Shown here in pieces: positions 11,123 through 61,185 of a DNA stretch of 64,000 nucleotides. Source of the DNA: Bryum argenteum (lineage: Eukaryota > Streptophyta > Bryopsida > Bryales > Bryaceae); assembly GCA_037043015.1 (NCBI GenBank), contig CM073331.1:1633501-1697500 (forward strand), given 5' to 3'. The first letter of the stretch is position 1, and every line of letters begins with the position of its first letter. The translations under genes and the position numbers were made by a program. Under the pieces are notes generated by a model that did no database searches, had not been told where the DNA came from, and worked only from the letters and a program-made list of their open reading frames with translations.

Positions 11123-11149
11123 TTAATGCCTCCCTCAACCAAGAAGAAC

Positions 11150-11420
11150 AAGAAGAAGAAGAAGAAGAAGAAGAAGAAGAAGAAGAAGAAGAAGAAGAAG
11201 AAGAAGAAGAAGAAGAAGAAGAAGAAGAAGAAGAAGAAGAAGAAGAAGAAGAAGAAGAAGAAGAAGAAGAAGAAGAAGAAGAAGAAGAAGAAGAAGAAGA
11301 AGAAGAAGAAGAAGAAGAAGAAGAAGAAGAAGAAGAAGAAGAAGAAGAAGAAGAAGAAGAAGAAGAAGAAGAAGAAGAAGAAGAAGAAGAAGAAGAAGAA
11401 GAAGAAGAAGAAGAAGAAGG
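11150..11420 (+). repeat. Uninterrupted GAA/TTC microsatellite, about 90 units
   Basis: GAA repeats run without a visible break for about 270 bases. All long Glu, Lys, Ser or Phe open frames here are products of the repeat. On the minus strand it is a pure pyrimidine tract directly upstream of the tail-anchored exon. GAA/TTC runs of this length are known to form triplex DNA and to be length-unstable. Confidence 0.97.
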
Positions 11421-56896: not shown

Positions 56897-59800
56897 ATGG
56901 ACGCAGGAATCCACGACCCAGGGTATGTCCTGCATCCCTGATGTTAACACGTATCTGTTTGTGCCATAGTGAAGTTGAAGTAGTTCGTTTCCTTGCTTCT
57001 CAGTTCTGTTCTGAAATTCATAGGTCTTAATTCCCTTTCGGAAAGCAAAGTCTGCGAAGGTCACTTTCTCCATTCTGAGACCTCCATTCCGTTTCAGTTG
57101 AATTTTAGTATGCACTTTAAGGACTAGCTCTCCTTGAATTATGTCTCAGGGATATCAAAGTTTTAGGGTTTCGTAACTTGAGGGTTTCGTACTGTTCTTG
57201 ATGCACTGCAGGGCCTCATCTCCGCCAGACCTACTACCCAAGCACTTAATATTCCTGAGCCACTCTGGACAAGAGAAGCCATTTGTGCAATGGCTCAATG
57301 AGGCTCTACAACGAGAACACCAATCTCCGTTTTTGGACCAGAACAAGGATAGCTTACCGACAGGACAGAGATTCCCAGAATTGATTTTCAAAGCTGCCGA
57401 GCAATGCCGGGTTGCTGTCATCGTTTTGTCTGAGGGGTACTTGACATCCAAGTGGCCTATGCTGGAGCTTGTTGAATTTCACCAGTCCATGAAGAAAGGC
57501 AACAAGATAACGCTACTTCCCGTTTTCTACAAGCTTACACCCGACCGGATTGAGAGTCCGAAGTGGACGAAGGCCTGGGTTGAACTGTTTAAAGAAGACG
57601 AGGAGCTGGTCAAGAAGTGCAAGGATGCTGTTCATGCGCTCAAAGCAATCAATGGGTTGATCTTCGAGAGGTACGGAAAGGACGACGTCAAGTATACGAA
57701 GGATGTGGTGGATGAGATTCGCAGGCTCTGCCCTTCACCACTGCTCTTTGATACTTCTGATATGCAGGGATGTGATCGCCTGTGTACGGTGTGTTTACCG
57801 TCTCGTCCTCATGAGCATGTGTGTCCAAGTCTGCGTGCATTGATCACATGACCTCCTAATTCTGATTCACGTGAAATACTTGATGTCTGCCAGCACTCAG
57901 TCACAGAATGTTTCTTTACTTAGAATGCTTCGGTGACAGTCGTCACTTTGGTCATTTAGGTAGCTGTAGGCCGATTTGACTTTTGGTTTGTGCTCACATG
58001 TATGCAGCATATATCCGAATTGTTTAAGGAGCGTGATGGAATCCATTGTCTGGGGATATACGGTGTACATGGTTCGGGGAAATCAAAGCAATGTGAAGCC
58101 ATGTGCAATTATTATTCTGAGGAGTTTGCAGGAAAATTTTGCATTGTCGACCTCGAAAACGACAAAGCTACTGAGAACCGAGCTAAGAAAGAGCGGGAGG
58201 GGAGATTGAAAACTGTAATTAAGAAGTTGGTTGGTTCTAACCAGAGTATCTTACACATCAACTCAGAAGAAGCGCAGGTAACACACTTTACCCCTGATTG
58301 TTGTTTACGCACCTGGACATGTCAATGTAAAGATCATGATATCATGTGGCAATTTTGTGCAATCACATCCTTGTTGTTGTGCCACAGTTGCAGAAGTACT
58401 TGAAGGACCGAGTGCAAAATGAGCGTGTCTTTTTGGTTGTGGAAAATGTTTCACAAAGCTCTATGAAGGAGGCTAAATTTTATGTGGAAGGTGGATATGC
58501 CCACGGAAGCAGGGTGCTTGTGACATCGAGGAATAGGAGTATCCTAGAAAAAATATTTGGAGGTCCAAAGTACAGTGACTTTTGTCAATCAGTTCCAATA
58601 CTGAACGACATAGAAGCTGCTGAATTATTCTTAGCAATCGGCGCTCCTGGCAAATCAATCACAGATCTGAACGATCATGAGTACGGCATCGTCAGCGACT
58701 GTTGTGCAAAAGCTTGTTTCGATGATCAATTATACCATCCATCATTTCTGATAGCCAGAGCAAGCTATCTTGAGAGAACTGCCGATGGTCAGGAGATTGC
58801 GAACTGGAATGTCGAGACATCCATAGCAGCGCATGACGTGTTTCATGACGTGTTTCGTCATGTTCTACTGGAATATGACAATAATCTGAGCTCTTCCGCC
58901 AAACTCGTTTTCATGGATTTAGCTCTTCTCGAATGCAAGTTGACCACATACAAGGATTTTTATCTGGGCTGGAAGTCGCCCGCGTACATGCTTGCGATAC
59001 ACACCATTTCATGCCTGCATGCCCTGACCTTCGAGCAAGCCCAAACAATGGTAAGCGCTCCAGATTGTCTTTCAGCAGTGATTTCACCCGGACCACCATA
59101 AATCTGTAGATTATCAGTTTGACGCACGTGTGAGGTGCAGGTGAAGGAGCTGCAAGACATTTCCATTTTGATAGAAGCAGCTACGGGAGTCGCAGTACCA
59201 GTCTTCTACAGAGAGTTTGCACTTTTTTTACTGAATCGTGCCGATCGAGACGAGAGGAAAATGTATCAAAGCCACGGGCGTCGGGCGTGTGGACATGAAT
59301 TTATTGGAATAGGGTGGCCAGAGATTGAAACTAGACTTGTGATGCATGACATGACTATATTGCGAAAAGATCTGCAGTTCCAAGAATCCACGAAATTGGT
59401 CTACCTAGAGCTCATACGAGTGGAAAAGGTGAAGGAGCTGAATCTCGATGGGTTGTGGTTTCTACGAGCGTTGATAGTGAAACAGTGCAAGGATCTGAAG
59501 AAGATTGATTCCCGATGCACTTCTCTCGGACTCAGCGTCGAAACCGAATGCGAAGAATGCGTGGGCAATCTTCGTTTTGTGGAATTGAAAGATCTTCCAA
59601 ATTTGAAGAGCCTTTCGTTTGCATCGCATGCATCCAGGTTAGAGACGGTATGGATGTCTGACTGTCCCAAAGCTTTAGGAGCTTGGTACTTGTCATCGAC
59701 GTGCACCAGTCTCAAGAGACTAGTTCTCCCGACGGGGTACAGTGGTAATATGCTGATTCAGAAGCAACTTGACAAAGATCTTGCTGATGGACAACTGTTC

Positions 59801-59920
59801 ATGCGATTGACGGAATTGGTACTCCCAAGGGGGGGACGTCCGGTTGTTATAGACCAGAAACTTGCAAAATCTTTCTTGAAAAATATGATGGAGGCGGAGA
59901 ATCTCGAGGTGTTGGTATAG
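56897..59920 (+). CDS. TIR-NB-LRR immune receptor (main part)
   Basis: Proposed exons: 56897-56922, 57212-57788, 58008-58277, 58388-59050 and 59141-59920, giving 771 residues to a stop. The TIR domain (about 20-150) has HLIFLSHSGQ and LTSKWPMLELVEF, with the Glu of the NAD-cleaving site in place. The NB-ARC domain has the P-loop GVHGSGKS (220-227), a kinase-2-like strand VFLVVENV, RNBS-B GSRVLVTSRN and MHD at 580-582 (RLVMHDM). The GLPL position reads LYHPSFL, so it is diverged. LRRs start near residue 600 (LVYLELIRVEKVKELNL, LRFVELKDLPNLKSLSF). Such receptors detect pathogen effectors and signal through TIR enzyme activity. The frame stops right where a perfect inverted repeat begins; further LRR coding follows at 60262. 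The gene is thus either truncated by an insertion or spliced past it. The donor at 57788 is the weakest junction. Confidence 0.8.
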
Positions 59921-60034
59921 GGGGAGGCCCTTTTGAGAGGGGCTCCCGTGATGGGAGGACCCGACAAGGAGGGCCGGGAGGCCCGACGAGGAGGATCCTC
60001 CCATCACGGGAGCCCCTCTCAAAAGGGCCTCCCC
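59921..60034. repeat. Perfect 39-base inverted repeat with a 36-base loop
   Basis: The arm 59921-59959 (starting GGGGAGGCCCTTTTGAGAGG) is the exact reverse complement of 59996-60034. The loop holds two related words, CCCGACAAGGAGG and CCCGACGAGGAGG. It begins immediately after the stop of the receptor frame. Transcribed, it would make a very stable hairpin. Confidence 0.97.
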
Positions 60035-60037
60035 TGG

Positions 60038-60260
60038 CGTAAAAACCCACGGGCAGTCCAATGTATTCAACTGGATGGATAAAAGTTTCAGCCGGGAGTG
60101 CTCAGAAAGTCTGCCCGAAAAAGAAAAAAAAAACCAAAACAAGCCTCACAGGGAGCCTCACAGGGATGCCTCACAGGGATCCCTGTGAGGTTATGGGAGG
60201 GACCTCACGGGTGTGAGGCTCCCTCAAATTCTATTGCATCCTTGCCCGTGGGTTTTTACG
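60038..60260. repeat. Second inverted repeat (18-base arms) enclosing a smaller palindrome
   Basis: CGTAAAAACCCACGGGCA at 60038-60055 is matched exactly in inverted order at 60243-60260. Inside is a 22-base perfect palindrome at 60168-60189 (core CAGGGATCCCTG), preceded by two further CCTCACAGGGA copies. A looser inverted GAGCCTCACAGGG/CCTCACGGGTGTGAGGCTC pair surrounds the palindrome. It begins only three bases after the previous inverted repeat. Confidence 0.93.
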
Positions 60261-60261
60261 A

Positions 60262-60597
60262 TATCGGGCAAACGATACCGGCAAGCATCGCTTGCATGGA
60301 CAGCATCAATGTCTCCAAACTTGTTCACTTGACTATCTTGGATCTACGTCGTGCAAAAATGAGGAGACTTGAAGGGCTTTGCAAATTGCGGCACTTGGGT
60401 GCACTTGGCTTATATGGTTGTTGTGAGCTTTTGGAATTGCCAGATCTTGACATTCTCCCAAAATTGATTAGGCTTTGTATCAGTCATTGCTACAAGCTTG
60501 CCGACCCTTTTTCCAAGGAAAAATTGCCTCACACTCTGCTGGGTTTCCATTTGGGTGTACGGGACTATGGACACTGTAAGGTATATATGTTGTTCTT
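60262..60597 (+). CDS. LRR segment of the receptor beyond the inverted repeats
   Basis: An open frame that continues to 60628 encodes further LRR sequence: VSKLVHLTILDLRRAKMRRL, LCKLRHLGALGLYGCCELLE and LPDLDILPKLIRLCISHCYK. It reads like the direct continuation of the receptor LRRs. A donor-like site (CACT/GTAAGG, or AAG/GTATAT) lies at about 60594-60600. No intron of matching phase was found that would join it cleanly to 59917, so I cannot say whether it is translated. A possible further exon with open frames lies at 60808-60890. Confidence 0.6.
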
Positions 60598-60678
60598 CTT
60601 CAAAACCATCCATCGTTTTGTAGATTAGTGTGATAATGCTGAATAGGAAAATATATTCATCAAACATAAGTATGGTAC

Positions 60679-60713
60679 TAAACCCTAAACCCTAAACCCT
60701 AAACCCTAAACCC
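60679..60713 (+). repeat. Interstitial telomere-type repeat, five TAAACCC units
   Basis: TAAACCC occurs five times in a row without error. This is the common plant telomere unit (TTTAGGG on the other strand). It lies just behind the last recognisable LRR block. Confidence 0.98.
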
Positions 60714-61185
60714 TTCAAATTATTGTGTGAAAGTAACTTAGGTTGTGGAGACTTTGAATACCTACATTCATTTATTTTGTATCTGTTGACAATGATTTGT
60801 TTAGTGTCTCAACCCTCAACGTCGGGAAAAGAAGGAACAAAATCATGGAAAGGGATGAGAACAATGGAGTGGGGAGATTCTTGGAGAAGGTACAAATGAT
60901 CACCAACCTATTGAAGAACAATGTAAGTGAAGAGTTGGTTACCGTAGGAGTGTAGATATTGTGCCACTTGATGTAAGGTCATTTTGTAAGATATTACTGA
61001 GATCATATACTGTGAATTTCCAAGTATTTAGTTACTATTTTCTAGGGTTTAAAATGTAGAATTATTGTACCACACAAGTAGGCCTTCTTGATAGGAAGTA
61101 CACTTTGTTCTTTAGAGGGCCATGCATGGATAGCCAAAACTTTTCATGTTCACTTTTGTAAGTACACTTTACACGGAATCTTTAG
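60714..61185. other. Spacer behind the receptor gene
   Basis: Open stretches at 60808-60960 (for example GRFLEKVQMITNLLKNN in one frame) might be a last receptor exon, but no phase-consistent acceptor was found. The rest is AT-rich without recognised features. Confidence 0.3.

Follow-up and report, generated by a model that had tools for sequence, protein, structure and literature searches.

The closest described systems are transposons of the Helitron2 group. In its passages on element ends, the account of Helitron2 by Bao and Jurka gives terminal and subterminal inverted repeats, a 3' hairpin and no target-site duplication (PMC3627910). The corresponding passages of Thomas et al. describe the same end arrangement for Helentrons and HINEs (PMC4067079), and those of Chellapan et al. 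describe it for FoHeli (PMC5148889).

The window analysed here (the whole stretch of Bryum argenteum DNA, 64,000 nucleotides) holds an immune-receptor gene of the TIR-NB-LRR type whose LRR exon is interrupted. What interrupts it is probably a short non-autonomous transposon, recently inserted, that moved in a Helitron2-like way. The inserted sequence belongs to a dispersed family that has fixed ends and, apart from one G at most, no recognisable target-site duplication, and the receptor frame is cut by a TAG at the start of the element. The features are as follows.

57177..59917, plus strand: TIR-NB-LRR gene, upstream part, from Pfam and protein matches
59915..60259, minus strand: non-autonomous transposon, 345 bp, delimited by the same ends in 45 copies, by empty sites and by uninterrupted receptor paralogues
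59918..59920, plus strand: stop codon TAG that closes the receptor frame, contained in the opening GTATAG of the element
59921..60034, no strand assigned: long 3' hairpin (transposon orientation), with 39-bp perfect outer arms and a 36-nt loop
60038..60055, plus strand: asymmetric inverted repeat, subterminal copy, with 3 nt between it and the hairpin
60169..60190, no strand assigned: 22-bp palindrome CCTCACAGGGATCCCTGTGAGG, inside the element and enclosed by the 18-bp repeat
60243..60260, minus strand: asymmetric inverted repeat, terminal copy, at the transposon 5' end; it reads CGTAAAAACCCACGGGCA, and its first base is shared with the target
60260..60580, plus strand: remainder of the receptor gene's LRR coding, downstream of the element and in frame from GAT ATC, with LRR Pfam matches below cut-off

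The outer hairpin arms (59921-59959 and 59996-60034) match 39/39 and lengthen to 55 nt at 87% once mismatches are allowed. Six nucleotides, CTATAC, lie between the hairpin and the transposon 3' end; on its other side three bases (60035-60037) separate it from the second inverted repeat, whose two copies (60038-60055 and 60243-60260) match 18/18 in the window. A sequence-only reading of this DNA had noted a receptor frame ending where a 39-base repeat begins, a second repeat three bases on with 18-base arms around a 22-base palindrome, and LRR coding resuming directly after it. These observations were borne out: the TAG at 59918-59920 is followed by the repeat from 59921, the second repeat and its palindrome lie as described, and coding resumes with GAT ATC from 60260. 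The same reading took the structure for an array of stacked hairpins, whereas it is one unit of 345 bp, or 346 bp if the G at 60260, common to element and target, is counted. The structure is far beyond chance; it folds with z = -13.0 as DNA and z = -16.1 as RNA, and 0/100 dinucleotide shuffles folded equally well in either case.

Searching the species' own genome (258.8 Mb in 25 contigs) with window positions 59911-60270 gave 109 matching pieces at 40 or more loci, the window included, among the best 40 of 53 candidates scored. A terminal-pattern search added seven stretches, five of them with further copies, one with a diverged copy (L054) and one with chance matches (L056); the 14-nt pattern has 86 sites in the genome, against 16 for a reversed-pattern control. 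The search for further copies of the arms that had been proposed with the first description of the locus was thus productive: the family numbers at least about 47, of which 45 are delimited by their ends, one is the diverged copy and one was seen as a match (C6:15649378). This count is a lower bound, and four single terminal-pattern sites outside family members (C1:5791034, C6:18529821, C8:161622 and C9:4022758) stand outside it. In L056, at 501-562 (G000:C4:21410562-21410623), GTATAGGGGGAGG occurs twice, 49 bases apart, in surroundings otherwise unlike the element; the pair is taken as chance matches to the element end.

The ends are nearly invariant, with GTATAGGGGG in 44/45 copies, GGGTTTTTACG in 43/45, and one-base variants in L030, L036 and L038. 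Copies are 173-428 bp long; the longest are L018 and L024, and most others resemble internal deletions of these two. Over shared columns the copies are 90-100% identical to the consensus, the value being 97-100% in 31/45 copies and 100% in eight (98.5% in the window copy), and identical copies stand at four loci (L022, L025, L026 and L027). Judging by this identity and these identical copies, the family was active recently.

The inverted repeat is better conserved than the hairpin, because perfect outer arms of at least 35 nt are found in only 21/45 copies. Terminal and subterminal repeats match 18/18 in 28/45 copies and at least 17/18 in 37/45, and the gap between subterminal repeat and hairpin is 2-3 nt in 36/45; in the other nine it is 0, 1 or 4 nt, the two overlap, or our script measured it poorly. 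Five copies (L017, L043, L045, L052 and L053) are without most of the hairpin; the left junction of the loss is identical in all five and lies close to a short microhomology. Given these five losses and the modest number of long perfect arms, the full hairpin may be dispensable. Two of the five, L043 and L045, are identical and lie at two sites; short-hairpin copies could still be mobile, or the same deletion could have arisen twice.

Several members of one subfamily carry one A/G difference in both repeat copies, and L038 and L053 have this change in one repeat copy only. Compensatory change in the hairpin arms was also considered; a by-eye check of the alignment was unconvincing, and the shared A/G difference is a single event marking one subfamily. 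Two local oddities were seen within the family. The L017 element (G000:C7:8675734-8675984, minus strand) reads CCTCCCCCTATAC followed directly by GTAAAAACCC, as joined transposon ends would read, and template switching within the hairpin is an equally good explanation of that junction. In L044 and L057 the hairpin runs on through the loop as a near-palindrome, as though one arm had served as template for the other.

Flanks were compared in 39 copies (38 and the window; L036 and the five copies found later were left out) for matching k-mers of 2-5 nt at offsets 0-2, against 200 permutations. No clear target-site duplication emerged in these 39 copies, no count exceeding the permutation maximum at any length or offset tested. 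A few counts equalled the maximum (e.g., 2 copies at 5 nt), so that rare short duplications are possible. Comparison of the flanks of all 45 copies with the sequences assembled for this analysis gave empty sites for four other copies in six alignments: two paralogous sites for L011, two for L012, and one each for L024 and L014. The L024 and L014 alignments are weaker and have gaps at a greater distance from the junction. In all six alignments the empty site shows a single base at the junction, which is G five times and A once. Insertion therefore added 345 bp beside a G, and a 1-bp duplication of G and a terminal G of the element are indistinguishable. Read on the minus strand, the target sites have the form C^, with A or T at +2 in 44/45 and no T run; the C immediately 5' of the element was required by our definition of the end. 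An A/T excess is also present at -2 and -3, weaker than that at +2.

The arrangement of repeat and hairpin and the lack of a clear target-site duplication are both as in Helitron2, and from these we infer a rolling-circle, single-strand mechanism. The element would move as single-stranded DNA, with a Rep-helicase supplying the transposition function in trans. Its 5' to 3' direction would be that of the minus strand of the window, with the 5' end GTAAAAACCC joined 3' of a host C and the 3' end presumably marked by the subterminal inverted repeat and the long hairpin ahead of CTATAC. The hairpin might serve transposition as a 3' end signal or be a by-product of it. In an element circle, on the rolling-circle view, CTATAC would be joined to GTAAAAACC.

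The empty sites also bear on a different origin, in which a DDE transposase that leaves a one-base or unrecognisable duplication would have moved the element as a MITE or foldback; we regard this origin as unlikely. Short, non-coding, repeat-rich and present in many copies, the element would suit such an origin, and the single G that flanks nearly every copy on both sides counts, formally, as a 1-bp duplication. However, the two outer ends do not form an inverted-repeat pair, one repeat copy lying about 120 nt inside, and neither the 39 copies nor the six empty-site alignments gave a clear duplication beyond one G. Cut-and-paste MITEs are recognised by terminal inverted repeats at both outer ends together with a duplication, and this element has neither in that form. 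No DDE family is known to us to make a 1-bp target-site duplication, which also counts against this origin.

Another improbable reading is a separate lineage of single-strand transposons outside Helitron1, Helitron2 and the Replitrons, with an enzyme of its own, a preference for a single C beside A/T-rich DNA and an exceptionally long hairpin. Descent from some other single-strand or recombinase class, namely Replitrons (Y1 HUH), Cryptons (tyrosine recombinase) or IS607-like elements (serine recombinase), is a decidedly doubtful proposition. Elements of the tyrosine- and serine-recombinase classes are described as duplication-free in the relevant passage of PMC3627910, and Replitrons are reported from mosses in that of PMC10741241. 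The latter passage, however, gives Replitrons direct terminal repeats of 5-11 bp and duplications of 2-8 bp, and the former names short direct terminal repeats for Cryptons as well; 0/45 copies have a terminal direct repeat.

If the element moves in a Helitron2-like way, the enzyme might be encoded elsewhere in the genome. The Helitron_like_N profile has 110 matches there, some of which are fragments of a single gene, and matches 0/14 control genomes. Seventeen of the 20 best Rep loci carry RGLPHAH and three are without such a motif; among four divergent Rep loci that were read, three have RGSEHEH (one of these, L099, with two stops) and one has ISLHAH. At least two motif types are thus represented among the Helitron Rep matches, and some of the matches lie in open frames 989-1340 aa long. 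Since a serine at the Rep motif site is named as a Helentron sign in the passage of Thomas et al. on this motif (PMC4067079), an enzyme of suitable, Helentron type may be present; the three RGSEHEH domains, however, carry E where P or L is described, and none of them could be linked to element ends. The searches revealed no autonomous element bearing these ends; of the 86 terminal sites, the nearest lies 36.9 kb from any of the 110 Rep matches. A search for a partner by shared internal sequence returned family members only (13/13 candidates scored), and 16-nt and 14-nt terminal patterns returned sites in family members and the four single sites. When the Rep paralogues L103 and L104 were compared for boundaries, strong homology set in near the ATG and no element end was visible; upstream flanks were readable for only two Rep loci.

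The interrupted gene has a TIR frame at 57177-57848, NB exons at about 58000-59050 and an LRR exon from about 59141, with borders placed by eye. TIR_2 is above the Pfam cut-off (E 1.4e-19), NB-ARC and LRR matches are below it, and the three regions lie within one gene, as the name TIR-NB-LRR implies. The exons other than the LRR exon are open as placed by eye, and the LRR frame (59123-59917) stops at the TAG. Reading through the element, the receptor protein has 17 database matches (7997 candidates scored): four TIR proteins of Ceratodon purpureus are 28-31% identical to it over 95-96% of its length, a fifth from the same species covers 76%, a sixth is weaker, and the remainder come from a fern and seed plants. 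Two further repeats lie in the window. An interstitial plant-type telomere repeat, 5.3 units of CTAAACC at 60678-60714, stands about 420 bases downstream of the element, and an AAG trinucleotide array at 11141-11419 (279 bp, 99% matches) lies in open frames on both strands.

Searching the own genome at the DNA level gave no receptor paralogues among the best 40 of 55 candidates. A protein search gave nine further receptor matches, and seven of these loci were aligned. Four of the seven (L060-L063) continue across the site in one frame, reading NLTVLDI, NLTVLDF, QLEVLDI and NLKVLDI, where the window gene reads NLEVL, the element, then DI; L064 and L066 align weakly across the site and L065 only downstream of it. 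Away from the site, the aligned part of L060 contains a stop and that of L061 a frame change, which may mean that these two are damaged in their own right; neither is interrupted at the site. Because the four paralogues read VLD[IF] through the site, in agreement with VL|DI, the insertion looks clean. An ancestral site GTG TTG GAT ATC, deduced from paralogue protein rather than from a DNA empty site, would fit the one-G rule. The GTATAG of the element is read as GTA TAG, and the stop removes about 107 or more C-terminal residues. As part of the joint explanation preferred here, this one receptor has likely lost its C-terminal LRRs. The suggestion that a foldback insertion had truncated the receptor was essentially right, in that a dispersed, recently active element occupies a site at which paralogues are without it.

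The truncation would be avoided if the element acted as an intron and left the receptor mRNA largely intact, which is very unlikely. GTATAG could provide a splice donor, and among the AGs scanned from about 60255 to 60480 one, at 60426-60427, is in frame with the GT at 59915. On the other hand, the element does not end in AG, and that acceptor lies 168 bases into LRR coding, so that its use would cut 56 more LRR codons. The sequence-only statement that no intron of matching phase exists thus nearly holds: in the stretch scanned, and with the GT of the element as donor, the one in-frame acceptor costs those 56 codons. The further proposal that the hairpins are a source of small RNAs regulating the receptor family can scarcely be credited. 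A very stable RNA hairpin is indeed predicted (z = -16.1), but the 21 Rfam matches, mostly to miRNA families, include none at gathering score, and the same sequence is present at some 40 loci or more. Compared with seven receptor-like loci and with all other parts of the window, the element has no 14-mer in common with any of them, so that the proposal is without sequence support and any small RNAs from the element would be expected to match the other ~46 copies rather than receptors.

We therefore return to a recent, probably Helitron2-like insertion. As an event it is ordinary, a transposon disrupting a receptor exon; the family is unfamiliar and young, with a Helitron2-like build. It did not turn up in the literature surveyed, which is weak evidence that it is undescribed. 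The striking hairpin array is explained without a new regulatory system, and the locus offers a recent disruption of an immune receptor whose empty site can be read from paralogues. The family itself is a second gain, being young and low in copy number, with exact ends and without a clear target-site duplication. Tools keyed to TC...CTRR would overlook families of this sort, and this one could be used to test the range of Helitron2-like end structure in bryophytes.

Among known systems, canonical Helitrons (Helitron1) resemble the element in having a 3' hairpin a few nucleotides from the end and no duplication, and differ in that 5'-TC and CTRR-3' occur in 0/45 copies and inverted repeats are present here. 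Foldback elements and MITEs are likewise short, palindromic and dispersed; asymmetric ends and the want of a usable target-site duplication set this element apart from them. Like a Replitron, it is small and not bounded by terminal inverted repeats of the usual kind, but it has neither the direct terminal repeats nor a clear duplication of the 2-8 bp given in the passage cited above. It comes closest to the non-autonomous members of the Helitron2/Helentron group (HINE, DINE-1, Helitron-1N_CRe and FoHeli). As described in the passages on ends drawn on here, these too are short non-coding derivatives with terminal and subterminal inverted repeats, a 5' repeat copy within 0-2 nt of the 5' end (at the very end in the present element), a subterminal copy that adjoins the 3' hairpin and no clear target-site duplication, the present element sharing one G at most with its target.

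Four points depart from those descriptions. The repeats are 18 bp long, against 8-15 in described elements. About 120 nt separate the subterminal repeat from the 3' end, against about 20-30 (38-60 in mite HINEs), because the hairpin occupies 114 nt; only the five copies without most of the hairpin have it at 36-39 nt. The 5' hairpin that the 5' repeat and following sequence form in Helitron2/Helentron elements is absent: in the window copy the first 34 nt fold at -1.9 kcal/mol (z -0.24, with 74/200 shuffles equally good), and a strong fold begins only at nt 35 from the transposon 5' end. Finally, the target at the 45 sites follows C, rather than reading TTTT^(T/C) or TT. Some relatives are described without one hairpin or without a clear target (PMC5148889, in its passages on these features), and because of this the departures may be normal variation. 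Rather than file it as a proven member, we regard the element as one that appears, by analogy of its ends, to work like Helitron2.
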